NCBI RefSeq assembly: GCF_000327485.1
Contig: NC_019943.1
Coordinates: 1,922,001-1,986,000, forward strand
Source: Methanoregula formicica SMSP
GTDB taxonomy: Archaea; Halobacteriota; Methanomicrobia; Methanomicrobiales; Methanospirillaceae
Length of the DNA: 64,000 nucleotides
Direction of reading: 5' to 3'
In this document: one piece after another, positions 15,490 to 57,181 of the stretch
Layout: each line of letters begins with the position of its first letter
How positions within the stretch are numbered: position 1 is the first letter of the stretch
The notes under the pieces: model-generated
The model's database searches: none
The model's input: only the letters and a program-made list of their open reading frames with translations
Told to the model about the DNA's origin: nothing
Translations under genes and position numbers: made by a program

Positions 15490-15518
15490 CCGGTATAATG
15501 GACGGGGTCGCGAATAAA

Positions 15519-15693: not shown

Positions 15694-15876
15694 ATGTCAA
15701 AACGGGCAGTCGACATGACCTTCCAGGCAATCTACACGCTGACGGACCTCCGCATCCTCCTCCGCGAGACCGCGCCATTGCACGAGCTCGATGCGAAGCA
15801 GAAGGAGCAGGCATTACGCCTGCTTGAAAACCTCGAGCGGCAGGTTGGCTCGCTGAAGCAGGAGATGCTGAAATGA
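15694..15876 (+). CDS. Small helical protein translationally coupled to SepCysS
   Basis: 60 aa, predicted mostly alpha-helical: a Leu-rich segment (AIYTLTDLRILLRETAPLHE) then an amphipathic helix (DAKQKEQALRLLENLERQVG). No known domain is recognised. The last codons overlap the start of the SepCysS gene in an ATGA junction (15873-15876), so the products are probably made together. A role as an accessory or docking subunit of the tRNA-dependent cysteine system is inference from coupling only. Confidence 0.7.
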   Translation: MSKRAVDMTFQAIYTLTDLRILLRETAPLHELDAKQKEQALRLLENLERQVGSLKQEMLK

Positions 15877-40410: not shown

Positions 40411-41820
40411 ATGAGTCCAGAACTGCCCGCGATGAGATATCAGGAATCAGAGACTATAGAACTGAAGGCCTCCCTTGCTGAACTGGATGCTGCCCTGATC
40501 GATGTTTGTGCATTTCTGAACCACCGTGGCGGCAGTCTTTATTTTGGTATTAGACCCGATGGTCGCGTAGTTGGTCTCACTGTCACCGATTCCACACTTC
40601 TAAAAATCTCCCAAAAAATTCGACAGAGACTCAAACCCGACATTATACCTGAAATCCGCGAACGAGTTGAAGGGGGGCGGTCTATCATCGAAGTGACCAT
40701 CGGTGAAGGGACGCATAAGCCCTATATGGTTGATAGCATTCCGTACATCCGAAGCGGTAGTGAGAGCGTGAAGATGCCCCCGGATGTACTCACCCGCCTT
40801 ATTCTGGAGCGTCAGGGGTACGCATGGGACCGCGATATCTGTACCGGTGCAACCCTGGGTGATATCGATCCGGCCCTAGTGAAGGCCTATCTGACCCGGG
40901 CTCGGCAGGTCCGGCTGATCGATTTGGATCCAGATACTCCGGTTGAAACTGCGCTCGACTCCCTCGAACTTCTTAAAGATGGCACTCCGACGAATGCGGC
41001 CATCCTCTTTTTTGGTAAAAGTCCACAGAGGTTCATAACTTCTGCAGAGATACGCTGTGCGAAATTCCGTGGTGATGATGTAACCCAGCCATATACAAAT
41101 ATGAAGGTCATCGGAGGTGCGATTGTTGCACAGATTGATCAGACTGAGTTATTCATCCGGGACAATATCGCTAAAGCCGCATGGATGCCGCAGGAGAAGT
41201 TCGAACGGGAGGAGTCTTGGGAGTATCCTCCTGATGCATTCCGGGAGGCCGTGATCAATGCGATCTGTCATCGGGACTATCAATCGGCAGGGAACGTTCA
41301 GGTCAGCATCTTTGCGAACTCGCTGGAGATTCTGAATCCCGGGCTGCTCCCTCCAACACTCACGATCGAGTCACTGAAGCGCCGGCACAGCTCAAAGCCA
41401 AGAAACCGGCTCATCGCGGATCTGCTGTTCCGGATCAAGTATATTGAGCGATGGGGATCTGGCACGACGAAGATGATCCGGGTCTGTCGGGATCTCGGTG
41501 CACCGGAACCGGAGTTCCACGAACAGGATGATGATTTCATGGTGACATTCCGGCGCTCATCGGTAAACGCGATTCTTGAGCGGCCTGAGCTGCTGAACGA
41601 CCGTCAGAAAAAGGCAATGGAGTATTTGAAAACGCACGAGTCAATCACGACATTGCAATATGTCCATGTGGCTAATTGCCATGAACGGACGGCACGTAAG
41701 GACCTAGCGGAGCTCGTGGGGCTCAATGTGGTTGTCAAGCAAGGACTGGGAAAACTCACACGGTACGTTATTCATCCAGGCTTCCGCCACTTCCCGATAG
41801 ACACCGGATCAAGCCATTGA
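40411..41820 (+). CDS. AlbA_2 (Schlafen AAA_4)-type putative regulator / RecG-related (COG2865)
   Basis: 469 aa. The N-terminal AlbA_2 domain has ESETIELKASLAELDAALIDV, FLNHRGGSLYFGIRPDGRVVG and PYIRSGSESVKMP. The middle region (PPDAFREAVINAICHRDYQS ... IERWGSGTTKMIRVCRDLG) matches the ATPase-like HATPase_c_4 region of COG2865, and a C-terminal winged helix (RTARKDLAELVGLNVVVKQG) follows. Such proteins are annotated as transcriptional regulators or ATP-dependent helicase-related and are frequent near mobile elements. An alternative start is the ATG at 40432. Confidence 0.85.
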   Translation: MSPELPAMRYQESETIELKASLAELDAALIDVCAFLNHRGGSLYFGIRPDGRVVGLTVTDSTLLKISQKIRQRLKPDIIPEIRERVEGGRSIIEVTIGEGTHKPYMVDSIPYIRSGSESVKMPPDVLTRLILERQGYAWDRDICTGATLGDIDPALVKAYLTRARQVRLIDLDPDTPVETALDSLELLKDGTPTNAAILFFGKSPQRFITSAEIRCAKFRGDDVTQPYTNMKVIGGAIVAQIDQTELFIRDNIAKAAWMPQEKFEREESWEYPPDAFREAVINAICHRDYQSAGNVQVSIFANSLEILNPGLLPPTLTIESLKRRHSSKPRNRLIADLLFRIKYIERWGSGTTKMIRVCRDLGAPEPEFHEQDDDFMVTFRRSSVNAILERPELLNDRQKKAMEYLKTHESITTLQYVHVANCHERTARKDLAELVGLNVVVKQGLGKLTRYVIHPGFRHFPIDTGSSH

Positions 41821-42104: not shown

Positions 42105-42118
42105 AAGAAACGTATGCG
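42105..42118. repeat. Casposon target-site duplication, left copy
   Basis: AAGAAACGTATGCG, identical to 56983-56996. The flanking bases differ on both sides, so the duplication is exactly 14 bp, the size reported for casposon insertions. Confidence 0.95.
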
Positions 42119-42199
42119 GGGTAATAGTTATCCCGAAAAAATGCCACTCTTGTAAAACTGGTTCACTCAACAGCGAAGGCTCCGCAAGTGCGGCGCGCT
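42119..42199 (+). repeat. Casposon terminal inverted repeat, left
   Basis: 81 bp identical to the reverse complement of 56902-56982. It starts GGGTAATAGTTATCCCG and ends ...GCGGCGCGCT. The similarity stops just after position 42199. Confidence 0.96.
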
Positions 42200-42234
42200 T
42201 TTTCAAAAAATGTCTGGATAAGTCTAGAAAAATT

Positions 42235-44256
42235 TTACGGATGCAGTAAGCTGAAAAGGTCAACACTGTTTCCACTGTTTAATTTCGCTCGAATCTGATC
42301 GAGTTGAGATTTTTTATCGAAAATTATATCAAATGAATTTTTACCATTCTCTGCAATCATTCCATTTAACATCAAACCAAGTAAAATTGTGGCTATTCTT
42401 TCAGTCTTTTTTGTGAAAAACGGTAGAATTAGACTATCTGAATGTGCATTGTGAACAATAAAATTTCGGTATCGATAAATTCTATCTATTTCATTAAGAA
42501 GTTGAGATTCCATCCTCTCAATTTGTTTTTTCGCAAAAATTTTGTCATTAAAAAGACGGTTAGAATATTCAATTTTATGTTCATATGAATAAGCGGATAC
42601 CTCAGATTTCAACCTCGGTAATGAAGTAATGAATTTTTTTGGGTTGATTGGTTCTCCAGGTTTCAAATCCAGTTGGCATAATTTTAGGGTCTCAGGAGTA
42701 ATTTTTGAGAACGGATTTGATGGAAATACTCGATAAAAATTGTAATCACTCCATAATGTAGAAAGTAAATTAATTGGGTTTTGTTCCAGGTCATGATAAA
42801 TGATTAGTGAAGGTGCTAGTTCTTTGATAATTGTAATCTTTTTTTGTTTCTCCCCTTTATTTGAGACCACCATTTCAGACGAGAAATTAAATAAATTTTC
42901 GATTGATATCCAATAATACAATAGTTTATCTTCAAAATTTGTTGATTCTGATCCCCTTCTAAACCAGAAAAGGGATAGATTCATATTTTTTATATCGGCG
43001 TTATTTTTTAATGGGTCTTCAAAAAACAATTTGTTCAAACTATTTACAAAATAGGGATTGTTACGAATACCGGGATAATCCTTCAAATTTGCAGAATGTA
43101 TCTTTTTATAAGTATGGTGGTCTTTAGATAGCCCAAAACTTTGGTTGTAGAGACGGCCATTCTTTACAACTAAAAATGAATTAAATAATATTCTAAACGG
43201 CGTATCTGAATGAACGTATAATCTTAAAATATTCAATGCTTTATCGATCTGGTTTATTGCTTGAGTTTTTCCAAACGGAATGTCGCGGCATGATATCGAT
43301 ATTGCCGCATTAATAAATCGATCATCGGGTTTTTTATTAAATAGTTCTGGACTGCCATTTTTTTCAGTTATTTCCTTTTCCTTAAAACTAAATTGTTTAA
43401 GATGCGGTGAATAAAAATTTACATTTCCTATGGTTAAATCAATATTATCTATCAAACCTTCAATCTCAAAAATAAATGTTCCCTCTTCTTTCTCCTTATT
43501 AAAAAAGGGCTTAAGTGCATCAATCCTAGATTCTATTGTGAGTTGATCCATCTCCTGTTTTACTGCCGAAAAGTAGCCAGAATCATCAAATTTTCCCTCA
43601 GTTTCGTAATTTTCTGCTTTTATGGTTACAGGAAAATCTGTATGAACAATTGATTTTTGAGGATCATTTTCCGGAGGTGCAGACCCTTGTTTGCCAGAAT
43701 TGAGTTGAATTATTTCGTACTTGGAGAAAATTTTTAATGGCATTTTTGCTATTGTCTCTAGATCATAACCATTAAGGAATAATTCCAAAATTAAATTTTG
43801 TGAAAGAATCAAAATTTCTTTTTTGTTCTGCTCTGAAAATGTTGGGTTTAATAGAATGACCTTAAGCATTTCGTGATTTTTCTGAAAGTAAACCCCATTT
43901 TCAAACTTCTTCAAAATATCTTTGCATAACGTTAAGATGTAATCGGGAAATTTTGGATTTTGCAATTGTTTTGATAGTAAAATGAACTCGGGTTTAAAGA
44001 ATTTCTCTATAACCGGATCCGATTCAATAATATAATTGCATTGAGTTTTAAAGGAGTTCCAAGTATTTTGAAATTGCAATTTGTTATAATTTATTTCCTC
44101 GACCATATCGAGAAGTAAAATGTGAGGGGATGTAAAAAATAATTCATAGGGATTATAGGACAAATTCAATGCAATTTCCTCCCATAGAATTACCCAGTTA
44201 TTTATGGCCTCGGTAATTTCGCCAGGAGTGTATTCATTAAATAAATCAAATCTCAT
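42235..44256 (-). CDS. Large HEPN-domain protein (ApeA-like HEPN), probable defence RNase
   Basis: 673 aa, strongly AT-rich. The C-terminal third resembles ApeA-like HEPN domains: SLFWFRRGSESTNFEDKLL, YWISIENLFNFSSE and, at residues ~595-604, RYRNFIVHNA, the R-x4-H motif of HEPN ribonucleases. The N-terminal ~400 residues are helical/mixed with no recognised motif and may sense a trigger. HEPN proteins of this type are abortive-infection RNases. It is the distal gene of the minus-strand casposon arm; no MNT antitoxin accompanies it. Defence function is inferred from the motif and context. Confidence 0.75.
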   Translation of the reverse strand: MRFDLFNEYTPGEITEAINNWVILWEEIALNLSYNPYELFFTSPHILLLDMVEEINYNKLQFQNTWNSFKTQCNYIIESDPVIEKFFKPEFILLSKQLQNPKFPDYILTLCKDILKKFENGVYFQKNHEMLKVILLNPTFSEQNKKEILILSQNLILELFLNGYDLETIAKMPLKIFSKYEIIQLNSGKQGSAPPENDPQKSIVHTDFPVTIKAENYETEGKFDDSGYFSAVKQEMDQLTIESRIDALKPFFNKEKEEGTFIFEIEGLIDNIDLTIGNVNFYSPHLKQFSFKEKEITEKNGSPELFNKKPDDRFINAAISISCRDIPFGKTQAINQIDKALNILRLYVHSDTPFRILFNSFLVVKNGRLYNQSFGLSKDHHTYKKIHSANLKDYPGIRNNPYFVNSLNKLFFEDPLKNNADIKNMNLSLFWFRRGSESTNFEDKLLYYWISIENLFNFSSEMVVSNKGEKQKKITIIKELAPSLIIYHDLEQNPINLLSTLWSDYNFYRVFPSNPFSKITPETLKLCQLDLKPGEPINPKKFITSLPRLKSEVSAYSYEHKIEYSNRLFNDKIFAKKQIERMESQLLNEIDRIYRYRNFIVHNAHSDSLILPFFTKKTERIATILLGLMLNGMIAENGKNSFDIIFDKKSQLDQIRAKLNSGNSVDLFSLLHP

Positions 44257-44529
44257 TTACTGCCAACAAAAAGAGAAAAGGTGCTATAATAAGATAATAT
44301 TATGGAAATTATTTTTCTTTTCACTCACATTCTAATGAACCGGGCGATTCGTAATAGTTATGGCGGTTAACAATCTCCTAACTGCCATGGTCTTGATGTT
44401 GATTGTTTTCTTCATCTGAATCCGTCTTTTGATCCGTTGAAATGATCTCCAATCAACACCTGCGATCTCTGCGTCATATTACCGGATAGATATTCAAAAA
44501 CATATTGAAAAAAGCATAAAAAGATTAAT
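44257..44529. other. Intergenic spacer between two cargo genes in casposon
   Basis: AT-rich, no gene. It contains an imperfect inverted repeat (ATGGCGGTTA ... TAACTGCCAT, near 44356-44386) that could terminate the upstream gene or regulate the HEPN gene. Confidence 0.5.
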
Positions 44530-46371
44530 TTATTTTACTAGCTGCAACTCGAATATTTTTTCGGCTAATAATTTTGCCCGCTTATTCCACAATTCTTTTG
44601 GATCTGTATCAGATTGTAATAACTGATTAAAAATCTCTTCTGGAATGTATGCTTTCAGAAATAGATCTTTATTTTCGGTGGTAGAAAGACCAAATTCTTT
44701 AATCGCAGTTGCGGGGCTTTTTGCTTTCCATTTTTTATTTGAATCAGCGGTCATCGGAATTAAATTCGCAAAACAATTGTATACCTTTTCTTTTGTTAAA
44801 ATATCATAACTACCACGATTATTTTTACACCAATCCTGGGGATAAAAATGATGTAACTCGACTTTTTGTGTTTTTTCTTGAGTAAATCTATCAAGATATG
44901 TTTTATTTATTATGTCATTTTTAATTGTATTGTAGATAAAAATGGAGAGGGCTTGTCTAATAGCGCCATAAATCTCGTGATTTAGTAGAATCTCCTCAAT
45001 ATTCTCTTTTGTTAAAATTTGAGAATTGTTTTTCATGAAGTGAGTGTGTAGTTCGGAATTACACTGTTCAATCCAATTCGGGCTGCCTTTATTGGTAATG
45101 AGAATTTCTTTTAATTTTTTAATATCCGCAGAAAGTTGAGTTAAAAATCCTTGATCATATCTTTGTGTAAGAATATTTCGCCAATAAAATGCTTTAAAGA
45201 GCCGATTTAAATCAGTAATTGAATATTTTTGTTCTGGCGATAAGTGATGCTCTTGCTGCCACCGTAATGAAAGATAGATAATTAAACTAGTTGGATATGG
45301 GACATCTTTGAGATAATATTCTGATCCGATAATGTCTGAAAAGAATTGAGCGCAATAGCCATCAATTTTTGAGATATTTTGATCGATAGTAACATAGAAA
45401 CTCTCAGGTGTTTCTAATAAATCACCACCTTTAATCGAGGTAACTTTGTCAGTAATTTTTGATTTGCATACCGGGGAAGGTGTACTCAAGTAGCATCCAG
45501 TTACCATTTGACAAAAGAAATCTCTACGATCATCATCGATAAAAAACTTTAATGAATAATAATCATCGGAATACGCCTGAACCTTTTCTCGTAAATTAAA
45601 TGTCCCATCTGTATTCTTGTAAACTAAAGTATGAATCAAATCAAACGTTGAAATTCGGGTGCCAGTTGTATTTAAATAATTAAAAATTTCGCAAACAGTT
45701 TTCATATCAATAGATTCAGATAAATCCACAGTTGGGATTTGGAACGTTGTAAAAATTATAAAATATTTACTGAATCTCTTTGCTCGCTTTTCTAACTCAG
45801 TTTTCTCAGGCAAAGTGCCATTGGGATAAAAATCAGCAACGTATATTTTTTGATTAATTTCTGGAAAGTCTTCATATCTATGTAAAGGAATTAAACCATC
45901 TCGAACACAATTTGCTAAAGAATCCCATCCCTTTGCATCGATTTCCGTTCCTTTCTTATAAACGATAATCTCATCAGAGTCTTCACTCTCATTGAGATCT
46001 AAAAACCAATCACCATGAAAATTATACCTTCTGTCAGGGGGTCGTAATTTTCCAAAGGCAATAGCTAATGCAGTAATTCTTTGTTTGCCATCTAATATCA
46101 GACTAATTTTTGCAGGATTTTTATCTGTATTTTTAAAAAAGGAGTCCTTTTCAATTTTTATTGGTTCAAAATCTGTATGGGCTTTACTTTGTGGTTGTTC
46201 CCATAACGTAATCAATCCAATAGGCCTGTTATTGAAAATTGAAGTTAATAGATCCTTAACTTGACTTTGAGTCCAAACAAAATCTCTTTGAAATTTTGGA
46301 ACTTGCCAATTAAGACTTTCTGAATATTCTAATATTTTCTCAATTGTCGGTTGCCCTAAATTAAGTGTCAT
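44530..46371 (-). CDS. GmrSD-type (DUF262 + HNH/DUF1524) modification-dependent nuclease
   Basis: 613 aa. The N-terminal DUF262 (GmrS-like) domain has VPKFQRDFVWTQSQVKDLLT (residues 24-43) and ISLILDGKQRITALAIAFG with the DGKQR nucleotide-handling motif (94-98). The C-terminal GmrD-like HNH domain has VELHHFYPQDW (His ~507-508) and FANLIPMTADSNKKWKAKSP. This fused single-chain layout is that of type IV restriction systems such as GmrSD and BrxU, which cut DNA carrying modified (e.g. glucosylated) cytosines using NTP. It lies downstream of cas1 on the same strand. An anti-phage cargo role is likely. Confidence 0.88.
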   Translation of the reverse strand: MTLNLGQPTIEKILEYSESLNWQVPKFQRDFVWTQSQVKDLLTSIFNNRPIGLITLWEQPQSKAHTDFEPIKIEKDSFFKNTDKNPAKISLILDGKQRITALAIAFGKLRPPDRRYNFHGDWFLDLNESEDSDEIIVYKKGTEIDAKGWDSLANCVRDGLIPLHRYEDFPEINQKIYVADFYPNGTLPEKTELEKRAKRFSKYFIIFTTFQIPTVDLSESIDMKTVCEIFNYLNTTGTRISTFDLIHTLVYKNTDGTFNLREKVQAYSDDYYSLKFFIDDDRRDFFCQMVTGCYLSTPSPVCKSKITDKVTSIKGGDLLETPESFYVTIDQNISKIDGYCAQFFSDIIGSEYYLKDVPYPTSLIIYLSLRWQQEHHLSPEQKYSITDLNRLFKAFYWRNILTQRYDQGFLTQLSADIKKLKEILITNKGSPNWIEQCNSELHTHFMKNNSQILTKENIEEILLNHEIYGAIRQALSIFIYNTIKNDIINKTYLDRFTQEKTQKVELHHFYPQDWCKNNRGSYDILTKEKVYNCFANLIPMTADSNKKWKAKSPATAIKEFGLSTTENKDLFLKAYIPEEIFNQLLQSDTDPKELWNKRAKLLAEKIFELQLVK

Positions 46372-46429
46372 ATCAGTTAGTTAGGAAATATTCGAGATAA
46401 AGATGCTCGTTTTAGATTATATGATGTGG

Positions 46430-47671
46430 TCAATCCATCCCATCAACCGTTGATCCACATTTATCAGCGGGTTGATCCCACCGATCAAGCCGTGTCATTA
46501 CATGCTTATTGAGGGTAAATGGTTGATCGCCCTCGGCGTTTTTCTTCATGTAATGCAGAGTCCCTTTAGAGAATCCGCGTTTCTTCCATTCAGTATAGGG
46601 GATGCTCAATATCTTTTTCCGGATCTCATCAGCATCCATCCGGTTGATCTCATAATCAGGACTAACTAGATCAAGGTGTTTTTGTTTATCAACAAGGAAA
46701 TGTGCCAACTCCCGCGCCTTGAGGAAGATCACATAATCCCATGCTGATTCCTTACCCTGATAAACAACGGATTTGTTGAGCCATCCGTTGATCTCATCGG
46801 TGATTTTCCTTGCACCTGTTGATCTCAATCTCAACGTGTAGTTATCAGTACGGATGAAGTCCTTCTTCTCCATCCGATCAGCCTCGATCAAATTGATCAC
46901 GGCCAGATCAACAATGAATCGGAATAACTCTTGGAAGTCATACGCAAGACTGTTTTTCCCAATTGCCATTTCATGAAGGTATCCAACGTGAGCATCGAGA
47001 CCAACACTATTGATCGCTCGCAGACATTCGGCTTCAAGCAGGGAATACCCATAATTCAGCATACAGTTGACAGTATCAGCAGCACCGTGAGGGCGATTAG
47101 TCCTGCCAACACACCGACTCGTAAACTCCAATCTATCCGGGATTACCTTCTGGATCTGATCCCAATAATGGACGGCAACGACACCTTCAACCCCCATCAA
47201 TTCCTTGATGGTTGTTACCTTAGTTAACTTTGCTGACTCGCTAGAGAAATCGGTTTCAACGTCGGGGTATCGCTGGTGTAAGTAGTCTAATACCAGGTGC
47301 GTCCTCTCAAATTTTGCGTCGATGAACTGTCGGGCTATCTGCAAACGGAGTTTTTTATCTTCGAAAGCGCGATACTGAGCGAACTTGGTTTTTACCTGTA
47401 CGCTTTCCGGGGGGAGCATTGTTGTAAGCAATTTCCCGTCCCAGTTCATGATCGTGATCTGGATGCCGTGTTTGATGAGCCACCGGATCGCCTCTATCGA
47501 GATGTTCCCGCTCCGGCCATAAATCACGATACTACTAATGTCAATCCGCTGCGGGGTGAAACAATATTGCTTAGGCTCTTCCTTTGTCGTAAATCGCCCG
47601 TCTCTTATGAACAATTTGGCGCCGTCAACGTGCATATCGATGCCGTGACCGTTCAGGAGAAGGAATCTCAT
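46430..47671 (-). CDS. cas1: Cas1 endonuclease/integrase (casposase)
   Basis: 413 aa. N-terminal beta domain (MRFLLLNGHGIDMHVDGAKL ... IVIYGRSGNISIEAIRWLIK) and helical catalytic domain with the family residues in place: Glu162 (GVEGVVAVHYW), His233 (LDAHVGYLHE) and Glu248 (LAYDFQELFRFIVD). A C-terminal extension after ~350 contains a helix-turn-helix-like segment (TEWKKRGFSKGTLHYMKKNA), typical of casposases and absent from most CRISPR Cas1. It excises/integrates the element at the tRNA-Leu 3' end. The start overlaps the upstream wHTH gene stop (ATGA). Confidence 0.95.
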   Translation of the reverse strand: MRFLLLNGHGIDMHVDGAKLFIRDGRFTTKEEPKQYCFTPQRIDISSIVIYGRSGNISIEAIRWLIKHGIQITIMNWDGKLLTTMLPPESVQVKTKFAQYRAFEDKKLRLQIARQFIDAKFERTHLVLDYLHQRYPDVETDFSSESAKLTKVTTIKELMGVEGVVAVHYWDQIQKVIPDRLEFTSRCVGRTNRPHGAADTVNCMLNYGYSLLEAECLRAINSVGLDAHVGYLHEMAIGKNSLAYDFQELFRFIVDLAVINLIEADRMEKKDFIRTDNYTLRLRSTGARKITDEINGWLNKSVVYQGKESAWDYVIFLKARELAHFLVDKQKHLDLVSPDYEINRMDADEIRKKILSIPYTEWKKRGFSKGTLHYMKKNAEGDQPFTLNKHVMTRLDRWDQPADKCGSTVDGMD

Positions 47672-48588
47672 CGTCTCCCTCCTAATCTGGGCATCTTAAT
47701 CTTCAGATTTTTTGGTAATGGCGAGGAATTGAGGGCTGCGAAATTATCATCTCGTACTTTGGGATTACTTGATTTTTTGACGGCCGACTTAATGAGTTCC
47801 AAAAGAGCCTGCCTTTGTTCCGGCTTGGCTTTCCGTCGTAATTCCCGATAACATTCAAACAGTTCTTCACTATATTGATCAATGATGCTGGCAGCTTCGA
47901 GGTATTGCTCTTTGTATTGTGTAAGAAGCCCGTGTTTCAGGTCGAATTTTATTTGTTCGATAATGATAGGATCTTGATAGTGACTTAACAGGAAAATGAG
48001 ATTACGTCTGAAATTTGGGTCTATCGATAATCCTGTTGGGTATTTTTTCAATAAATCGTGGAGTATGTCCAAAAAATCGCATGTGTTGCTTGGCTCAATC
48101 TTATTGAATCTCTGATGGTTGTAAAAGATGTTCAACAGCTTGGACGTTAATTCCTCGTCAGCATCGGTAAAAAATTGAGTAAGGGCATCGAGACGATCCG
48201 GGGTCAAGAGGAATGACGAGGCATAGACGTTGAATTCGTCGAGGGTATCTTTCTTTTCATCACTGTCCTGCTCATCGAATGTATTGAATAAATGATCGAG
48301 GTGTACTTTTCTTTTATCTGTCGTGGTAAGAACCAGATATACCGCATTGGGGTTGGTCTCATTTATGCCGTATGCCTTTACCTCTTCGACAGTAATTTTT
48401 GATACTATCCCGGATTTATTCAACCAATCCAACTGACGGTAAATTTGAGCCGTGGAGTATCCGTTATACTTGCCGGGAGTTGTTGGATGTTCTACCTGCA
48501 TTTTTTTAATTAACACACCTGTTCGGACGGGTGCATTTTCCGATATGAATCGGGTAATTTCTTGAGCTACCGGATCTTCCAACCTCAT
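47668..48588 (-). CDS. Winged-helix protein coupled to casposase
   Basis: 306 aa. The N-terminal wHTH (EITRFISENAPVRTGVLIKKM ... YSTAQIYRQLDWLNKSGIVSKI) is followed by a helical body and a basic C-terminus (KNLKIKMPRLGGRR). Its stop overlaps the cas1 ATG by 4 bp, so it is translated with the casposase. It probably binds the terminal repeats or the divergent promoter. No enzymatic motif was seen. Two 8-bp palindromes TGATATCA (48588-48595, overlapping its start, and 48648-48655) are candidate operator sites. Confidence 0.8.
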   Translation of the reverse strand: MRLEDPVAQEITRFISENAPVRTGVLIKKMQVEHPTTPGKYNGYSTAQIYRQLDWLNKSGIVSKITVEEVKAYGINETNPNAVYLVLTTTDKRKVHLDHLFNTFDEQDSDEKKDTLDEFNVYASSFLLTPDRLDALTQFFTDADEELTSKLLNIFYNHQRFNKIEPSNTCDFLDILHDLLKKYPTGLSIDPNFRRNLIFLLSHYQDPIIIEQIKFDLKHGLLTQYKEQYLEAASIIDQYSEELFECYRELRRKAKPEQRQALLELIKSAVKKSSNPKVRDDNFAALNSSPLPKNLKIKMPRLGGRR

Positions 48589-48705
48589 GATATCACATAC
48601 ACACTCTCAAATTCCAGCGTTTATACTATCAAATATACTCTCAATTATGATATCAATCTAACTATCGTTTTTGCATGTCAGAAAATGTTTCGGTGACTTA
48701 TCACC
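48589..48705. promoter_or_regulatory. Divergent promoter region of casposon with palindromes
   Basis: Drives the two arms. Contains TGATATCA at 48648-48655 (a second copy at 48588-48595), TATA-like stretches around 48618-48640 in both directions, and GGTGA-CTTA-TCACC (48692-48705) immediately before the ATG of the RHH gene. That hairpin would include the Shine-Dalgarno, so it may act as operator or translational control. Confidence 0.55.
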
Positions 48706-48846
48706 ATGACCGAAAAAACCCGAACAATCGTTACCATGTCTCCTCACATGAAGGAGAAACTGGCACAGACCGCAGAAAAACAGGGCTGCTCTCAAGCCGA
48801 AGTCCTCAGGAATGCTTTTATCCGGGCTGTGGAGGCAGATTCATGA
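48706..48846 (+). CDS. Ribbon-helix-helix (CopG-like) regulator, 46 aa
   Basis: ATG at 48706, TGA at 48844-48846. The product is RTIVTMSPHMKEKLAQTAEK then GCSQAEVLRNAFIRAVEA: one strand and two helices, the RHH fold. Such proteins act as dimeric repressors, probably of the casposon's right arm. The stop overlaps the next ATG (ATGA, 48843). A longer frame over the same bases in another phase is rejected because it would destroy this gene. Confidence 0.8.
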   Translation: MTEKTRTIVTMSPHMKEKLAQTAEKQGCSQAEVLRNAFIRAVEADS

Positions 48847-49493
48847 ACGGCAAGCGGTTCTCTCGGAAATACCGCACATTCTGGGAGTGGATCAGTGTCC
48901 AGAAATATGAATCGAGGTATGTTCAGAGGATCAATTCCCTGCATGAACAGTTTCCCGAACTGACCTTGGACGAACTCAAGGCACGAACACCCCCGGAGGT
49001 ATACCTATCCGCTCTTCGCTGGGACGATTTAACCGTCGATGAAAAATATTTCCGCATCCGTGCACTCGAAGCCCTCTATTACCTGCAAGCGGGCATACCC
49101 TTTACCAAGGCCGTGAAAAAGGCTGGGATCTCAAAATCATGCGCGATCCGCCACCTTGGATCAGCCATCCGGTATAATGGGCACATCTGGATCTCGACCG
49201 GAACCGACACAATCCAAGTAATGACCACCCTTTTTGTCAAAGGTAAGGGGATCGTATCCGCCCTTGTGAATTCCGCTGAGGCACGATGGAAAATCGCATA
49301 CTACATGAAAGCCGTGGTTCTTGCGCTAGCTCATAATAAACCAGAATGGATTCGGGGGTATGAGTCCGAAAAAATCTCCTTGGAGGGGTATCCCGAGCTG
49401 GAATTTGAAACCGACATTAAAAGGCTCTATTCCCTGCGGTATTCACTAGATTGCAGTAGACTAGTCAATGTCGCCTTATCGGTGCGGGTATGA
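48843..49493 (+). CDS. Casposon protein with HTH-like segment (tandem paralogue 1)
   Basis: 216 aa. The ATG at 48843 overlaps the RHH stop and has GGAGG seven bases upstream. The sequence FSRKYRTFWEWISVQKYESR, YVQRINSLHEQFPELTLDEL and KAVKKAGISKSCAIRHLGSA (HTH-like) is repeated in the next gene (FSKDFRTFNQWLKGQAPGSR, YAQRITRLHERFPSMNLREL, ANTGMKKETALQHLGKYVAK). Both are alpha-rich and basic. Probably DNA-binding proteins for replication or transposition; the family is not recognised. No nuclease residues are evident. Confidence 0.7.
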   Translation: MNGKRFSRKYRTFWEWISVQKYESRYVQRINSLHEQFPELTLDELKARTPPEVYLSALRWDDLTVDEKYFRIRALEALYYLQAGIPFTKAVKKAGISKSCAIRHLGSAIRYNGHIWISTGTDTIQVMTTLFVKGKGIVSALVNSAEARWKIAYYMKAVVLALAHNKPEWIRGYESEKISLEGYPELEFETDIKRLYSLRYSLDCSRLVNVALSVRV

Positions 49494-49500
49494 GGTGACA

Positions 49501-50142
49501 ATGACCCAAAAAATCTTTTCAAAAGACTTCCGCACCTTCAACCAGTGGCTAAAAGGACAGGCACCTGGTTCACGGTATGCACAGCGGATAACCCGACTGC
49601 ACGAACGCTTCCCATCAATGAATTTGCGGGAGCTGAAGAAGGTCCGGGTCAGCGATTACGATATAAGTGGCACAAAATGGGATTCACTGACACCCGAGCA
49701 GAAAAGTGATCGTATCCTTGCTTTAGAGGTGCTGAGGGTCATGCGGAAGGGGGAAAAACTGAAAAACGCTCTTGCCAACACCGGCATGAAGAAGGAGACT
49801 GCACTTCAGCACCTCGGGAAATATGTCGCAAAAGTGCGGGGATACTGGCGGGTCAAACCCTCGGACACCATCGAAGCCGAGATGCACCTCTTTGTCCGGG
49901 GTGAAGGGTATACCACCATCGTCACAACCAACTCACAAGACCGGACCCGGATAGGAAAATATCTGGCAGCGGTCGGACTTGCCCTCAAATCAGGCGATCC
50001 GGCAGTACTCGCACCATTTGAAAAAGTCGTGATAACCGGTGCTAATGGAGACCAGTACGAACCGGAAACGGATCTCGAAGCCCTCTACGAAGCGCAAGAG
50101 AGTCAGGAAGAGCCCGAATTTATGGAGATCTACCAGTCATAG
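49501..50142 (+). CDS. Casposon protein with HTH-like segment (tandem paralogue 2)
   Basis: 213 aa from the ATG at 49501, chosen because GAGGTGA overlaps the stop of paralogue 1 and sits just upstream; a frame extension to 49468 is not needed. It shares the N-terminal ~110 residues and the HTH-like segment with the preceding gene. The C-terminus is acidic (EPETDLEALYEAQESQEEPE). A tandem duplication followed by divergence is the simplest history. Confidence 0.7.
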   Translation: MTQKIFSKDFRTFNQWLKGQAPGSRYAQRITRLHERFPSMNLRELKKVRVSDYDISGTKWDSLTPEQKSDRILALEVLRVMRKGEKLKNALANTGMKKETALQHLGKYVAKVRGYWRVKPSDTIEAEMHLFVRGEGYTTIVTTNSQDRTRIGKYLAAVGLALKSGDPAVLAPFEKVVITGANGDQYEPETDLEALYEAQESQEEPEFMEIYQS

Positions 50143-50153
50143 GGGGCAGAGGG

Positions 50154-50492
50154 ATGGACAAAGCAACGCATGAAAGAGTCCTCAAAACTCCGCAGAGCAT
50201 CCGATCTAACCGCCCTGCCTGTTTCCTGTGTGGCGAGGATGATCCCCTAGTCATTGAAGAGCATCACACCCTAGGCAAAGCATATTCCGATGACGTTATC
50301 CCCCTCTGTAAAAATTGCCACGCCAAGATCACTGCCGGACAAAACCTGTTCCCCCCACGGGCACGCAGTCACAAGGCACCCATTAAAGATCGGTTGGCCT
50401 ATGCCCTTTACACCCTGATTTACTTTATCGAACTGGTACTAAAATACCTCAAAGATCTTTGTCTGGAAATTGTCGGAGTCGTGGCCACATGA
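50154..50492 (+). CDS. HNH endonuclease
   Basis: 112 aa. The HNH core is ACFLCGEDDPLVIEEHHTLG followed by DDVIPLCKNCHAKITAGQN, giving C-x2-C ... HH ... C-x2-C-H, zinc-stabilised ββα-metal nuclease geometry. A hydrophobic C-terminal helix follows. HNH nucleases are recurrent casposon components and may nick DNA during excision or replication. The stop overlaps the polB ATG (50489-50492). Confidence 0.88.
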   Translation: MDKATHERVLKTPQSIRSNRPACFLCGEDDPLVIEEHHTLGKAYSDDVIPLCKNCHAKITAGQNLFPPRARSHKAPIKDRLAYALYTLIYFIELVLKYLKDLCLEIVGVVAT

Positions 50493-53140
50493 TCGCCCTG
50501 CGGGGGTATACCCGTCGGATCAATGGTGGTGATAAGCCAAAGACCGGCTCTCGCCTTTACACTCCCATCACCCATGATAGGGTGCTCGTGTTCGATACCG
50601 AGACCACGGCAGACCACTACCAGAACCTAAAGATTGGTTACTTTAAACTGTATCAGGATGGGTATCTACAGCGCCACGGCCTTTTCTACCATCCCTATAC
50701 GCTCGACAATACAGAGATGCAGACCCTTGAAACCTTCGCAGCCAAAGAACGCATCCAACTCTTCGAGGTGGACGAGTTTATTGACGGCGTATTTTACAAA
50801 GAGGTATACGAGAACCGGGCGTTGTGCATCGGGTTCAACCTGCCATTCGATATCAGCCGGTTAGCTTTCGAGGTGGGGCAGTCGCGGAAAAACAATAAGG
50901 GCGGGTTTACTCTCGGCCTGTCTTGGCGACAATGGAACCCTCCGGTTATCATCAAAAAGATCGGCAGCGCCCATACCATGAAATTCTCAACACTGGTTGG
51001 CAGCAGGCTACGAGGTTATTTCCCCGGGTACTTTTTGGATGTGCAGACCCTTGCCGAGGTTTTACTGAAGGAAGAACACCTATCCCTCGCCCGCCTTGGC
51101 GAGATCCTGAACCTCAAAAATAAGAAAATCGATGGCGGGGAGCATGGGTATGTCACGGAGAAATACATCGAGTACAACATCCGCGATGTAGCCTGCACCT
51201 ATGAGGCATATACCCGACTTATAGCAGAACTGGAACGATACGGGATCGATATTCCGCCGACTAAGATCTTCAGCTCGGCATCCCTCGGCAAGTATGTCTT
51301 AAGGCAGTTAGGTATCCGGTCGTTCTGCGAGTGCCAGCCTGATTTCCCCCCGGAAACCCTCGGCCACATCATGACAGCTTACTATGGCGGGAGGACGGAA
51401 TGTAAGATCCGAAAGACCCCAACTCGCGTTACCGGTCTAGATTTTACCAGTATGTACCCCTCCGTAACGATGCTGATGGGGTTATGGTCGTTCATTATCG
51501 CCCGCTCCCTTGAGACGAATGACGTAACAGAAGAGATCCGCGCTCTGGTGTCAGAGATCAGTTTATCGTCGTTGCTTGACCGCGAACTTTGGAAAGATAT
51601 GGTTGTGCTGGTGCAAGTCCAGCCGGACGGCGATATTTTCCCGGTACGTGCAGATTACAAAGGCGATGGCCGGATGTTCAACGTCGGAATCAATTGTATT
51701 ACATCCGAGACCCCGCTATGGTATGCCCTCCCGGACGTAATCGCATCAAAGATCCTGACCGGCAAGGCATCGAAGATCCTTCAGGCAATCCGGTTCGTCC
51801 CAAAGGGTGTGCAGGATGATTTGATCCCGTCTAATATCTTAGGCGTCAACCTCGATCCCGCGAAAGATAATCTCATCCAGGTGTTCGTTGAGGAACGGCA
51901 GAAAATCAAACAGCAGCTCAAGGGCACATCAAAGGACGACCCCGCCTTCCCTCAGTTATCCAGCCGGGAACATTCGATGAAGATCCTCGTTAATGCGATG
52001 AGCTACGGGATATTTATTGAACTCAACAAGGAGTCCGACAAAAGCACCTTCGAGGTTTACGGTCTCGATCACTATTCCACTGATGAGAGTTATTACGAGG
52101 AGCCCGGGCAGTACTTTCACCCGATCTTGGGTGTGGTCATCACTGCCGGGTCGCGGTTGTTCTTAGCAATGGCGGAGGCTAGGACTCTCGGACTCGGAGC
52201 GCACCACGCCTATATGGACACGGACAGTATTTTTGCCCCGCCCGAGCATGCAAAAGAGATTGCGGACTTCTTCCAACCCCTTAATCCGTACCGTGTTGAT
52301 ATTCCCCTGCTTAAACAGGACAAAATTGATCTTTGGTTCTATGGTGTCTCATCCAAACGTTATGTTCTGTATCAACATCAGGATGAAAAGATCACGATTA
52401 CTGATTTCAAGTTACACGGCCTCGGACATCTCACCAACCCATTCCCCCGCCGAAAAGGTCACTGGCAGGAAGAGATCTGGCAAGATCTTCTGATGTTGCA
52501 CTATGATCAGATATCCCCGATGGATATAGAACAGAAATACGGCAGTCTCTACGCCCTCACGAAGTTGACGATCAGCACCTACCATGTCTATCATCGCTTC
52601 CGGTCCCTGAATGCGGAAAAAGACTGGCGTGATCAGATAAAGCCCTTCAATTTCTACAATCTGGGATTTCAGACACGGGAGGAGAACGGGAAACGGATTA
52701 AGCCCCTTGCACCATACTCCAAGGAACCGCAAAAAATTGTTCATGCCCCGTTTATTGACTATGAGACCGGCACGATCATGCAGGGATCACGATTCTTTAA
52801 ACCATTATCGAGGACGATCCTCCAATACGTTGATCATCCCGAGCACAAATATCAAGGCGATGTAGGTTTGCTGATCAGGAAGTCGATCAACGTGGATGAC
52901 GTGTTGATCATCGGTAAGGAAGCCAACAAGATCGAGGATCAACCCCTCTTTGTGACCGATGCCCAGATATTCCGGAATAAGAAGAGCATATGCCAGAAGA
53001 TCCTTACCATCCGGCAATGTGATGCAGAGAACGCCGGTGTTGATCGTAAGACCTTTCAGCGGATCAAAAGCCGGATTCAGAATAAAAAGACGATCAACAT
53101 CAAGACCGGGGCAGTTAAGCGGCTCTTGGCGATGTGCTAA
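50489..53140 (+). CDS. polB: Family B DNA polymerase (casposon PolB)
   Basis: 883 aa from the ATG at 50489, four-base overlap with the HNH gene and GGAG 8 bases upstream. Proofreading motifs are intact: ExoI VFDTETTAD (Asp36, Glu38), ExoII GFNLPFDISR, ExoIII YNIRDVACTYE. Polymerase motifs: A GLDFTSMYPSVTML (~317), B KILVNAMSYGIF (~497), C AYMDTDSIF (~574) and KxY SSKRYVLY. It should replicate the element or fill gaps after integration; protein priming is known in some related elements but cannot be judged here. Confidence 0.93.
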   Translation: MIALRGYTRRINGGDKPKTGSRLYTPITHDRVLVFDTETTADHYQNLKIGYFKLYQDGYLQRHGLFYHPYTLDNTEMQTLETFAAKERIQLFEVDEFIDGVFYKEVYENRALCIGFNLPFDISRLAFEVGQSRKNNKGGFTLGLSWRQWNPPVIIKKIGSAHTMKFSTLVGSRLRGYFPGYFLDVQTLAEVLLKEEHLSLARLGEILNLKNKKIDGGEHGYVTEKYIEYNIRDVACTYEAYTRLIAELERYGIDIPPTKIFSSASLGKYVLRQLGIRSFCECQPDFPPETLGHIMTAYYGGRTECKIRKTPTRVTGLDFTSMYPSVTMLMGLWSFIIARSLETNDVTEEIRALVSEISLSSLLDRELWKDMVVLVQVQPDGDIFPVRADYKGDGRMFNVGINCITSETPLWYALPDVIASKILTGKASKILQAIRFVPKGVQDDLIPSNILGVNLDPAKDNLIQVFVEERQKIKQQLKGTSKDDPAFPQLSSREHSMKILVNAMSYGIFIELNKESDKSTFEVYGLDHYSTDESYYEEPGQYFHPILGVVITAGSRLFLAMAEARTLGLGAHHAYMDTDSIFAPPEHAKEIADFFQPLNPYRVDIPLLKQDKIDLWFYGVSSKRYVLYQHQDEKITITDFKLHGLGHLTNPFPRRKGHWQEEIWQDLLMLHYDQISPMDIEQKYGSLYALTKLTISTYHVYHRFRSLNAEKDWRDQIKPFNFYNLGFQTREENGKRIKPLAPYSKEPQKIVHAPFIDYETGTIMQGSRFFKPLSRTILQYVDHPEHKYQGDVGLLIRKSINVDDVLIIGKEANKIEDQPLFVTDAQIFRNKKSICQKILTIRQCDAENAGVDRKTFQRIKSRIQNKKTINIKTGAVKRLLAMC

Positions 53141-53301
53141 TAATGGAAGGAAGTGGAAAAAAGAATTATGTCAATTAGGTACCAAGTTAGTTATTATATT
53201 TTTAAAAATATATTAAACTATTTGGTGTGACGAAAAAAGTAATGATGTGTTAATGATAAAAGAAATCATTTATTTAGATTAATACCAAGTTTCACATATT
53301 G

Positions 53302-56190
53302 ATGCTAACAACAATTGACCAAGATGAATTTCATGCGCAATTATTTAGTCCGAAAAAAGAAAGCAAAGAAGCCGCAATAGGCCAGTTGACCGCGTGTTTT
53401 TTTATTTTTCCAGATAAGGTCGCAGCATGGAATGATCTCCTCCTTTTAACGAATGATGAGGATTCTGCGATAGGACGCAGAGCAGCACAAGCCCTCGGAT
53501 TTGCCTATGCGTATATGCCTAACAAAAAAAAGGCATGGGAGGATATTCACCGCATTTGCAAACATAAAGAGTACCCTGTTCGACAAGGCATCGTGAAAGC
53601 TATAAGACTTGCTTTTGTACATATTCCCGACAAGAAAGTAGCGTGGAAAACCCTCTTAAAATTGGTTCATGATAAAAATCGATTTGTTAGAGAGGATGCA
53701 GTAAGGGCACTCAAATTAACATATTCCTATTTTCCCGATATCAATGTGGTATGGGATGAATTCGTTCGACTTAGCAAAAATAAGGATTTTAATATACAAT
53801 GGATTTCCGTTGGTGCTCTTGGAGATGTCTATGCTCATGTTCCTGACAAGGAAGCAGCATGGAATACATATTTGAAAATAATCTACTATCCGGGCAGTGT
53901 TATTGGAAGCGTAGCCCTTCATACTCTTGGAAAATTTTTTGCATATATCCCTGATAAAGAGTCTGCATGGAGTACAATTTTAACCTTATCGAGTCATCAT
54001 GAATCAGCTATACGAGCACTTATTGCATACAATATCGGTTGCGTCTATCGTCATGTTCCTGATAAGGCAATTGCGTGGAATGTTCTCTTGAACTTGTCTA
54101 ATGATCCAGATTCAGATGTACGAGATAAATTAGTAGAGTCACTTGGAAAGATCTATCCGGATATCCCTGACAAGGAAGCAGCATGGAATATTCTTTTAAC
54201 CTTAGCTAATGATCCGGATTATTTTGTTAAAATGCGTACCGCAGATGCTCTTGGAAAGATCTTTTCGCATATCCCTGACAAGGAAGCAGCATGGGATACT
54301 CTTCTAACCTTATCCAGTGTTCCGGATTATTTTGTTAAAACGAGTACCGCAGATGCTCTTGGAAAGATCTTTTCGCATATCCCTGACAAGGAAGCAGCAT
54401 GGGATACTCTTCTAACCTTATCCTGTGATTCGGATTCGAGAGTTCGAGAGAGGGCAGTACTAGCTCTTGGGAATGTCTATTCTGATATCCCCAACAAGAA
54501 AAGAGCATGGGATACTATCCTGAAATCGACTAATGATCCAGACTCACGTATTCAAATGCGAGCATTACATTCTCTTGGAATGATTTTTGCTGATATCCCT
54601 GACAAGGAAATAGCGTGGAATACTCTTCTAACCTTATCCCATGATCCGGATTTAAACGTTCGAATAGGTGTGGTACAAACACTTGGGAAAATCTATGCCC
54701 ATGCTCCAGAAACAGGAGTAGCTTGGAATACTCTTAAAAAATTTTCCAAGGATAAAAACGGACATGTTCGAATAGAAGCATTACACGCGATAAGATCTGC
54801 ATATCCCTTCCTAGTGAATAAGGAACTAGCAAAAGAAACAATTCTACAGTTAACACAAGATATTGATCCCACCGTCAGAATTTTCGCATTCCACACCGCA
54901 GGTACAATTTCTATTCAGATAGCGTGCGATCTTGATAATGATAATTTATTTCGATCAGAACTTGAAAATGCAATGCGTTTTTTTGAGCAATCGTATCAGG
55001 AATCTGAATTACTCTCTGAACAAGAAAAAATGGATAAAAATCCCGCTCAAATTTGTTATCCTTTATACAAAGCATTTTACGCGGTTACTTTTCAGAAAAA
55101 AACATTAAATGAAACTGTAGAAAAATTCATTTTAGAGGCGCAAAATGCCATTATCCGTTCAGATGCCCGTGAGCAACTTATCATAATCATCGAAAAACTT
55201 GCGAATGCTCTCACGGAAGTGGAAGGTCTACATATCCATGATCCCACACTTAATACCCGTTTATCTGCATGCAGTCAATATTGTTCCGAGGCAGAGGCAC
55301 TGATCGAATCTGTTGAAAACGAAAGACCGTATGCTGCAGGGATAATGAGAAAAGGGGCGCAGATTGTCCGACGTGACATCGATGAAATTAATGCAGAAAT
55401 TTATGCACAAGCAGAGGAGATTTGTCAACTTACAAGAAAAAAATCTCCCCCGATAAAAGAACTGGGTGTTGATATTCACCGTCTAGTGAAACAAATTAAA
55501 GAAAATAATGATGTTAAGAATGTGACACGAGAGACAATTCAAGGAATAAATGATAAGATCTCTCTTATACCCCCAAGCGTCCTCCAACCAGAACTCGGGA
55601 AAGCGATTAAAGCACTTCTTTCAATTATTCAAGACTCCATTGTTAAGGAAGATCATCAACAAATTCGCAATTCGTTAGATGAACTCAAACAACTTATTCT
55701 GAAGGTCGATTCGCATATCGATGAACTCGAACATACAATACTCGCACGATTTGATAAAACTGAACAAAAGATTATCGGAGGAATAATCTCTGAACTCAGT
55801 AAGACCGATAAGCAAATTACCAATGATATTTTTGTTGCCCTTGAAGAGCAGAAATTAAGTCAAAAGGATCTGACTGAATTAAAACAAATCGTGAAAAAAA
55901 CTAATGAGATTCTTATCGAAATCAAGAATGATGTTCATGAGAATCAGCAAGGATTTTCAGATAGAATTGAACAATTTATTGAACTACAGAATAACCCTGC
56001 TGATTATGCGGTAAAACATCAAATACTCGTTAGCATCCCAATTCTACCCTTTGTATCTTACAATGTAACTGTAGGTTCACCAGCAGTTAAATTAAGAACA
56101 TTATGGGAAGGTGTGAAAGGGATTTGGAAAAAATTGCCTAAATCACATCCAGAAAATTTCATGTATAACGATTATGCAAATTCCCCCTAG
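53302..56190 (+). CDS. HEAT-repeat / coiled-coil protein, casposon cargo
   Basis: 962 aa from the ATG at 53302 (preceded by in-frame TTG). Residues ~20-540 are about 13 HEAT-type units of ~39 aa with consensus IPDKEAAWNTLLxLSxDPDS then xVRxxAxxALGKIY. The middle units are almost identical at DNA level (54240-54420), showing recent repeat amplification. The C-terminal ~400 residues form long helices and coiled coil (DELKQLILKVDSHIDELEHT ... EQKLSQKDLTELKQIVKKTN). No enzymatic motif was seen. Such HEAT proteins are abundant in Methanomicrobiales; here it could be a binding or defence scaffold. Confidence 0.85.
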   Translation: MLTTIDQDEFHAQLFSPKKESKEAAIGQLTACFFIFPDKVAAWNDLLLLTNDEDSAIGRRAAQALGFAYAYMPNKKKAWEDIHRICKHKEYPVRQGIVKAIRLAFVHIPDKKVAWKTLLKLVHDKNRFVREDAVRALKLTYSYFPDINVVWDEFVRLSKNKDFNIQWISVGALGDVYAHVPDKEAAWNTYLKIIYYPGSVIGSVALHTLGKFFAYIPDKESAWSTILTLSSHHESAIRALIAYNIGCVYRHVPDKAIAWNVLLNLSNDPDSDVRDKLVESLGKIYPDIPDKEAAWNILLTLANDPDYFVKMRTADALGKIFSHIPDKEAAWDTLLTLSSVPDYFVKTSTADALGKIFSHIPDKEAAWDTLLTLSCDSDSRVRERAVLALGNVYSDIPNKKRAWDTILKSTNDPDSRIQMRALHSLGMIFADIPDKEIAWNTLLTLSHDPDLNVRIGVVQTLGKIYAHAPETGVAWNTLKKFSKDKNGHVRIEALHAIRSAYPFLVNKELAKETILQLTQDIDPTVRIFAFHTAGTISIQIACDLDNDNLFRSELENAMRFFEQSYQESELLSEQEKMDKNPAQICYPLYKAFYAVTFQKKTLNETVEKFILEAQNAIIRSDAREQLIIIIEKLANALTEVEGLHIHDPTLNTRLSACSQYCSEAEALIESVENERPYAAGIMRKGAQIVRRDIDEINAEIYAQAEEICQLTRKKSPPIKELGVDIHRLVKQIKENNDVKNVTRETIQGINDKISLIPPSVLQPELGKAIKALLSIIQDSIVKEDHQQIRNSLDELKQLILKVDSHIDELEHTILARFDKTEQKIIGGIISELSKTDKQITNDIFVALEEQKLSQKDLTELKQIVKKTNEILIEIKNDVHENQQGFSDRIEQFIELQNNPADYAVKHQILVSIPILPFVSYNVTVGSPAVKLRTLWEGVKGIWKKLPKSHPENFMYNDYANSP

Positions 56191-56663
56191 TCGTACTCAA
56201 ACTCAAGAATAGTTTATAATATAATTCTCTCTTCTTTTGTGGAATAATTTTGTTAAAAAATTAAGACCGGTTTGAATGAGATTAATGACGAATTTTCAAG
56301 AAATTGGTATCAGTTATGCGGGCAGTATAATAGGATGATAAAAGCGATTTTACAAGAGTGGCATTTTTTTTGGGATACCTATATTCAAACATTATTACAA
56401 AAATTGAGAGAGGAAAAATTCTGTGTTATAATCAAAATCTTTGAATCTGTAAATCTTACTTATTTTCAGAAATGGCATAATTATACAGTGTAAAATTAAC
56501 AATAAACGATAATCATCGCGCGTTTAGTAGTTTAAGAGATGTACATGCATTAAAAAGATGAAAAAAGCTCAAAATGGTGAGTGGGGGGCGAAAAGTTGAT
56601 ATTGTGGAGTGGGTTGACCTAAGATTAGGCGATTAATATTTAATCGCTTAGAAGAGGATCAAC
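56191..56663. other. Casposon right-end non-coding stretch with partial TIR
   Basis: AT-rich. A 73-codon frame from TTG (56272) covers the partial terminal repeat at 56348-56383 and is not accepted as a gene. No other structure was recognised. Confidence 0.6.
56348..56383 (-). repeat. Internal degenerate copy of the casposon terminal repeat
   Basis: Matches the outer ~37 bp of the right terminal repeat (TTTTACAAGAGTGGCA then a T-run, GGGATA and CTATT) with one extra T and two substitutions, in the same orientation, 0.6 kb inside the right end. It lacks the final TACCC and has no target-site sequence next to it. Confidence 0.75.
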
Positions 56664-56858
56664 GTGAAGAAGAAAATCAAACAGAACACACCGGAATATA
56701 CCTGTTTTGAATGTGGAAGTTCGAATCTTATTATCGATGAATACAATGCCGAGGACTGGGAAGGCGCCGGGGAAGCAGAATTAGCAGAAAGAGAATTAGG
56801 TAATCATGGGACTCTAACTTGTCTTGATTGTGGATCAACGCAAGAATTTGATAATTAA
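56664..56858 (+). CDS. Small zinc-ribbon protein (64 aa) near casposon right end
   Basis: GTG start at 56664 with GAGG six bases upstream. Two knuckles, YTCFECGSSNLIIDEYN and TLTCLDCGSTQEFDN, flank an acidic/Ala-rich helix (EGAGEAELAERELG). A zinc-ribbon that could bind nucleic acid or a protein partner. It lies between the internal TIR-like copy and the true right end, so it may have been gained separately from the rest of the element. Confidence 0.75.
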   Translation: MKKKIKQNTPEYTCFECGSSNLIIDEYNAEDWEGAGEAELAERELGNHGTLTCLDCGSTQEFDN

Positions 56859-56901
56859 AAACCGATAATACCAATTTGTAATTATCAACAATTTTAAAAA
56901 G

Positions 56902-56982
56902 AGCGCGCCGCACTTGCGGAGCCTTCGCTGTTGAGTGAACCAGTTTTACAAGAGTGGCATTTTTTCGGGATAACTATTACCC
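56902..56982 (-). repeat. Casposon terminal inverted repeat, right
   Basis: 81 bp, the exact reverse complement of 42119-42199, ending at 56982 (...AACTATTACCC). The target duplication follows immediately. Confidence 0.96.
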
Positions 56983-56996
56983 AAGAAACGTATGCG
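56983..56996. repeat. Casposon target-site duplication, right copy (tRNA-Leu 3' end)
   Basis: AAGAAACGTATGCG. On the tRNA strand this reads CGCATACGTTTCTT: the last three acceptor-stem bases CGC, discriminator A, and ten downstream bases. The tRNA is therefore left complete after insertion. Confidence 0.95.
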
Positions 56997-57077
56997 AGGG
57001 ATGGGATTCGAACCCAAGAACTCCTACGAGATTAGGCCCTCAACCTAACGCCTTTGACCTGGCTTGGCTACCCTCGC
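56993..57077 (-). tRNA. tRNA-Leu (anticodon GAG), casposon target
   Basis: Read on the minus strand: acceptor GCGAGGG (57077-57071) pairs with CCCTCGC, anticodon arm TTAGG-TTGAGGG-CCTAA gives anticodon GAG, a long variable arm marks a class II tRNA, and GGGTTCGAATCCC is the T-arm. The discriminator base is A at 56993; CCA is not encoded. The immediate upstream sequence lacks a clear TATA box. The casposon inserted with its right end abutting the 3' end. Confidence 0.95.
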
Positions 57078-57137
57078 ATGGGGGTAAAATCTCTGAGGGA
57101 TCTTGCTGGCAGCGATGCAGCGAACAACCCTTGTCCA

Positions 57138-57181
57138 AGGCCCTCAACCTAACGCCTTTGACCTGGCTTGGCTACCCTCGC
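57138..57181 (-). pseudogene. Truncated tRNA-Leu 5' half (44 nt)
   Basis: Identical to the first 44 bases of the intact tRNA-Leu (acceptor 5' strand, D-arm, anticodon GAG and first bases of the 3' anticodon stem), then diverges. It is on the same strand, ~60 bp upstream of the intact gene. It cannot form a full tRNA. Confidence 0.9.

Follow-up and report, generated by a model that had tools for sequence, protein, structure and literature searches.

Casposons have been studied as probable ancestors of the adaptation machinery of clustered regularly interspaced short palindromic repeats (CRISPR). We analyzed a stretch of 64,000 nucleotides from contig NC_019943.1 of Methanoregula formicica SMSP (hereafter called the window), which contains one complete family 2 casposon. 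Inside this element, on the 3' side of its casposase gene, lie two genes that encode a GmrSD-type nuclease and a divergent ApeA-like HEPN protein. These genes are probably antiviral defense cargo of a casposon whose arms carry exchangeable genes.

Restriction-type and HEPN nucleases have already been reported in casposons (PMC4046053, PMC6563490), and casposon movement in vivo has been shown in Methanosarcina (PMC10359463). In the usual scenario for the origin of CRISPR, a casposon lands beside an innate immunity locus (PMC6452270). Separately, HEPN proteins in restriction operons have been proposed as a further layer of defense, and DUF262-HNH proteins fused to HEPN domains are on record (Anantharaman et al., PMC3710099). 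The casposon papers that we searched name neither the element described here nor M. formicica.

A complete casposon with two cargo genes beside cas1

The casposon spans 14,864 bp (42119-56982) and is flanked by 14-bp target-site duplications (AAGAAACGTATGCG) that match at all 14 positions. The left duplication is at 42105-42118, and the right one, at 56983-56996, extends into the 3' end of a tRNA-Leu (GAG) gene predicted by ARAGORN (56992-57078, minus strand), which is the integration target. The terminal inverted repeats (TIRs) occupy 42119-42213 on the plus strand, starting with GGGTAATAGTTATCCC, and 56888-56982 on the minus strand; they are identical at 91 of 95 positions, including the first 42. 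The genome consists of one contig with 2,820,858 bases and has one casposase gene. Three further, distant Cas1 homologues, with 28% identity to the casposase, are presumably of the CRISPR type.

The HEPN gene (42235-44256) and the GmrSD-type gene (44530-46371) are both on the minus strand. Both open reading frames (ORFs) are intact and, as proposed in a preliminary description of this locus, lie beside the casposase gene within the element and are AT-rich relative to its core. Their GC contents are 31.1% and 31.8%, respectively. In comparison, cas1, the helix-turn-helix (HTH) genes, the HNH gene and polB have 46-50%, the HTH/HEAT gene has 41%, and the flanks have about 56-59%.

The GmrSD-type protein has 613 residues and matches GmrSD_N (PF03235) with E=7.5e-28 and 98.4 bits, where the cut-off is 33.2. 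An LDGKQR sequence is readable in its DUF262 part, and HHFYP...NCFANLIPM...N in its HNH part, which is DUF1524-like. The best match in the PDB is 7p9k, a solved DUF262 protein (E=8.7e-7) that we take to be BrxU. A point against this assignment is that GmrSD_C (PF07510, HNH) scores 18.3 bits (E=0.0023), under its 23-bit cut-off. Of the proposed DUF262/HNH fusion, the DUF262 half scores well above its cut-off, and the HNH half is visible in its motif residues at a score below the threshold. The protein is predicted to cut DNA that enters the cell and is probably modified.

The HEPN protein has 673 residues. Single-sequence scans of it against Pfam, NCBIfam, PHROG and PADLOC gave no match at thresholds of E<=1 to 10. 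Two relatives were found: an archaeal protein of 655 residues (34-36% identity; loci L038/L210) and, on a plasmid of the cyanobacterium Geminocystis, a gene with a frameshift (L037). For a profile built from the C-terminal HEPN half of these three sequences, the seven best PDB matches are all E. coli ApeA proteins (Ec1, Ec2, Ec3 and Ec4; E=2.8e-8 to 0.0054), which precede every other PDB match, and a profile of the whole protein matches ApeA with E=1.5e-6. The R-x4-H motif is intact (YRYRNFIVH) and reads RNFIVH, RNKIVH and RNKIVH across the three family members, among which the RNxIVH block and an upstream E-N helix are invariant.

Several observations weigh against this assignment. A profile of the N-terminal half gave no match, to ApeA or otherwise, and the whole-protein profile aligns collinearly with the N-terminal half of ApeA at a sub-threshold score. 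A single-sequence AlphaFold model had a predicted local distance difference test (pLDDT) score of 32, and recognition of the protein as HEPN depends on a small profile. The Pfam HEPN_Apea label (PF18739) was rejected because that model matched neither the 673-residue protein nor its relatives and because an hhalign comparison of the family with 12 archaeal HEPN_Apea members was not significant (E=0.11). The Pfam HEPN_Apea proteins of archaea are a different group from this family. Judged from the profile comparisons, the 673-residue protein is predicted to be ApeA-like with respect to the solved E. coli ApeA, and we file it neither as ApeA nor as Pfam HEPN_Apea. The intact motif given in the preliminary description is confirmed, and the ApeA-like HEPN identity holds relative to E. 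coli ApeA but not relative to the Pfam family.

Core genes and surroundings

The casposase (Cas1-solo; 46430-47671, minus strand) matches PF01867 (Cas_Cas1) with E=3.7e-67. Its C-terminal tail, whose assignment as HTH comes from PMC4046053, is conserved at codons 340-400 in other casposases. The adjacent HTH/HEAT-type protein (47668-48588, minus strand) has an orthologue in the same place in 23 of the 23 delimited casposons. On the plus strand follow HTH protein 1 (48675-49493), which is conserved by casposon comparison, its paralogue HTH protein 2 (49468-50142), an HNH nuclease that is kept in all elements (50154-50492; PHROG HNH, E=9e-5) and a family B DNA polymerase with a C-terminal HTH tail (polB, 50459-53140; PF00136, E=3.4e-4; PHROG DNA polymerase, E=3e-12).

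The arm beyond polB carries, also on the plus strand, cargo that encodes a 963-residue HEAT-repeat protein (53299-56190; HEAT_2, E=1.8e-33) and a 64-residue ORF with a GTG start and two CxxC motifs (56664-56858), read from the sequence as zinc-ribbon-like. Four paralogues of the HEAT-repeat protein, two in each arm, are encoded in L192, a casposon of 18.4 kb.

Just outside the element, a regulator-like gene with Schlafen/AlbA_2 and HATPase_c_4 domains (40411-41820) lies in a region of low GC content (38-42 kb), possibly a further insertion. At the other end, a 44-nt piece of the tRNA-Leu gene recurs exactly just past this gene at 57138-57181 (feature 57034-57181).

Cargo varies among casposons and often includes defense genes

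For about 40 full-length casposases, the surrounding sequence was retrieved, and 22 further casposons were delimited. For 21 of these, the ends were set by exact or one-mismatch 14-bp duplications; the other, L009 from Methanogenium cariaci, lies in a tandem insertion and was delimited by its TIRs, with an imperfect duplication. L009 has a second TIR in tandem after its right end. At least 12 delimited elements have tRNA-Leu directly at one end. With the window element included, all 23 casposons share a six-gene core with the same gene order, and variation occurs outside cas1 and polB. Arm genes are almost always specific to one element: among 90 ORFs in the arms, only seven small clusters recur, several of them within one element.

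The HEPN and GmrSD genes are absent from all 22 other delimited casposons. Whole-genome searches also covered 19 other casposon-bearing genomes of Methanosarcinia and Methanomicrobia (G542-G560), and their casposons lack GmrSD. The HEPN gene was not found in the other 231 genomes of the host's class that were searched, and no relatives of its product were found in viral contigs or in the phage records searched. The comparison therefore agrees with the earlier designation of both genes as cargo, in that neither is fixed in casposons.

Recognized or candidate defense genes are present in 9 of the 23 casposons, counting the window element, and none of the others shares the pair of GmrSD and HEPN genes. 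L009 carries Avs2 (split by a frame change, 11595-15823), a CARF-HTH protein and a methyl-directed restriction enzyme. L170 encodes a type II methyltransferase, a restriction enzyme and Vsr, and L177 a KAP/PifA/QatA-like protein and a PDDEXK nuclease of the kind associated with reverse transcriptases. SIR2 and PifA occur in L185, a Shedu-type DUF4263 protein in L195 and a defense-type (DRT/retron-like) reverse transcriptase in L203 (13278-14786; RT_III-A, E=5e-98). L204, which is the same element as L136, carries a BglII-like enzyme and a TPR-GreABC-PIN protein, and L207 carries the candidate family PDC-S31.

Defense matches were found for 14 of 43 scanned cargo ORFs. In a control set of 50 ORFs from the flanks, PADLOC matches with E<=1e-10 came from no more than about four proteins (13 families with one member each), giving p=0.004. 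Two points count against this contrast: the scanned cargo ORFs were partly picked by eye, and when the unscanned arm ORFs are taken as negative, the comparison becomes 14 of 79 versus 4 of 50 (p=0.19). Because significance is lost in that case, we claim recurrence and not proven enrichment, for which the data are suggestive. As far as these sequences indicate, casposon arms are fast-changing cargo sites, often with defense genes.

Possible roles of the two cargo genes

The relatives of the HEPN protein also occur next to restriction genes. The archaeal relative sits between a HARE-HTH gene and a gene for a type IIG-like restriction-modification protein of 1123 residues, which was called type IIG from a methyltransferase NPPY motif found by eye and a TaqI specificity domain found by Pfam. 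The Geminocystis relative is flanked by the hsdS and hsdR genes of a type I system. Each of the three family members therefore adjoins a different kind of restriction gene (GmrSD, type IIG and type I), and two of the three are outside any casposon. The HEPN protein might be a ribonuclease that shuts the cell down, as a second line of defense behind the nuclease. According to the title of a recent preprint, DNA-breakdown products activate ApeA. Together with the proposal in PMC3710099, this suggests, more speculatively, that the HEPN protein of the casposon might be activated by breakdown products of DNA that the nuclease has cleaved.

Alternatively, the two genes might serve the casposon itself, with the HEPN protein acting as a toxin against loss of the element, GmrSD excluding rival plasmids or casposons, and antiviral activity arising as a by-product. 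HEPN proteins are also known from toxin-antitoxin systems (PMC3710099), and casposons are competitors for the same tRNA-Leu sites, with tandem integration, both in our survey and in previous work (PMC10359463). However, a small antitoxin-like gene was not found adjacent, all three HEPN family members adjoin restriction genes although two are outside casposons, and classical antiviral systems occupy the corresponding position in other casposons. We consider this explanation unlikely.

It is more improbable still that the 673-residue protein is no HEPN ribonuclease and that its R-x4-H matches by chance or for structural reasons. Such a reading would fit the lack of a match in Pfam, NCBIfam, PHROG and PADLOC and the non-significant hhalign result, but the profile matches four E. 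coli ApeA proteins with E-values down to 2.8e-8 and has no better match outside ApeA, and R-N-x-I-V-H is invariant in three distant relatives. HEPN similarity, on which the preliminary description depended, is thus present in the three-sequence profile. Finally, a role in integration and excision has been proposed for casposon nucleases (PMC4046053), but it is very improbable that the two genes assist integration or replication as accessory components, given that 22 other complete casposons, all with the six-gene core, lack both and that the GC contents are strongly unlike that of the core.

Composite arms and dispersed gene tails

A relic between the two cargo genes also fits exchangeable arms. 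At 44365-44508 (minus strand), a whole-genome search detected the decayed 3' tail of a casposon polB, comprising its last ~49 codons (residues about 843-891) with internal stop codons (69% identity, E=1.3e-10). The region forms an inverted repeat with 53009-53117 (82%). The relic points from cas1 towards the TIR, an orientation like that of the genuine polB tail relative to its own TIR. L177 and L204 have the layout of the window element on the cas1 strand, with cas1 followed by a defense gene, a polB-tail relic, further cargo and the TIR. A control search with reversed sequences gave zero polB-tail matches.

Over the three elements, the relic begins 1-21 bp past the first cargo gene, and in L177 and L204 it begins 1-7 bp past the stop codon. 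We rejected the idea that the relics extend the preceding cargo gene by read-through, because only the window element has its relic in frame; the stop codons before it are TAA in the window element, TAA in L177 and TGA in L204. The L177 relic is 83% identical to the polB of L177 itself. In contrast, the L204 relic is 82% identical to the polB of another casposon and only 52% identical to its own, which indicates that this end-piece came from another element.

The shared composite layout points to exchange of arms between elements, as far as can be judged from these alignments. A degenerate internal copy of the right TIR (56346-56389, plus strand; 22 nt exact, TTTTACAAGAGTGGCATTTTTT) suggests that the polB side grew outward by capture of a further end. 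Casposon arms thus appear, at least sometimes, to be assembled from end-pieces of different casposons. A polB-tail-like HTH (44%) was also observed at the C-terminus of the core HTH/HEAT gene beside cas1 in L201 (7737-7943), so the tail may be the ending of a third gene too.

Tails were also found dispersed in the casposon-bearing genomes, in searches that left out casposase matches at <=36% identity as CRISPR-type Cas1. Of 126 partial casposase matches, 88 include the 3' tail and three include the 5' end, and most begin at codons 340-370. Dozens of orphan casposase tails, covering codons ~340-400, and of polB tails are scattered over these genomes (loci L005, L013-L033 and L101-L135). Among 36 partial polB matches, 16 are tails and one is a head. 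The cas1 and polB tails are often close together on the same strand. About 0.8-1.5 kb downstream of several tails are short sequences common to different loci, which are probably TIRs. No tail relic was found to be a mini-element with intact ends (two TIRs and target-site duplications). The idea that cas1 tails are in general appended to the 3' ends of genes is unsupported, in that most of 93 relics are not close to the end of an ORF. Krupovic reportedly described, in 2016, solo TIRs of casposons in Methanosarcina mazei, and the dispersed tails may be larger relatives of these. It is possible that tail relics were already described in Krupovic 2016 or 2017.

These observations can be combined in a model. 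The casposase would place the element next to tRNA-Leu genes, and the fixed core (cas1, HTH proteins, HNH and polB) would move and copy it, while the two arms outside cas1 and polB would carry exchangeable genes. Cargo would arrive when whole end-pieces of different casposons are joined, each made up of an HTH tail from cas1 or polB together with cargo and a TIR. Tail relics would remain after such joining. The full combination, in which casposons are antiviral vehicles with cargo turnover by end-piece exchange and the GmrSD and HEPN proteins are coupled through DNA-breakdown products, is put forward only tentatively, and we regard it as somewhat doubtful as a whole.

Comparison with known systems

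If casposons routinely carry innate immunity genes by cas1 and often swap them, the origin of CRISPR could be explained without a chance landing, and this scenario would be testable by comparative genomics and in Methanosarcina. The link between mobile elements, restriction and CRISPR origins that was drawn in the preliminary description is an interpretation. A HEPN family tied to three restriction types would add a concrete case of restriction combined with a second-line ribonuclease. Our analysis adds an ApeA-like HEPN family linked to restriction, a systematic survey of casposon arms, and composite arms that contain polB-tail relics.

The window element resembles the family 2 casposons described by Krupovic et al. 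in 2014 (PMC4046053) in having Cas1 and an archaeal-type PolB with C-terminal HTH tails, an HNH protein, two kinds of HTH proteins (one HEAT-like), TIRs and a target-site duplication that overlaps a tRNA 3' end. It differs in its GmrSD and HEPN cargo and in its composite cas1-side arm with a polB-tail relic. The thaumarchaeal casposon NitEve-C1 (PMC6563490) also carries a HEPN nuclease as cargo, for which its authors suggested a link to defense, but it belongs to family 1 and to Thaumarchaeota. Like GmrSD- and BrxU-type proteins (PF03235, 7p9k), the casposon nuclease combines an N-terminal DUF262 domain with DGKQR and a putative C-terminal HNH domain in a single chain, although its HNH domain is divergent and below the Pfam cut-off. 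The predicted HEPN half of the 673-residue protein matches that of E. coli ApeA (PDB 9hxb-9hxn) in its E-helix and RNxxVH blocks, and the total lengths are similar (673 versus 593-619 residues), whereas its N-terminal half is not detectably related.

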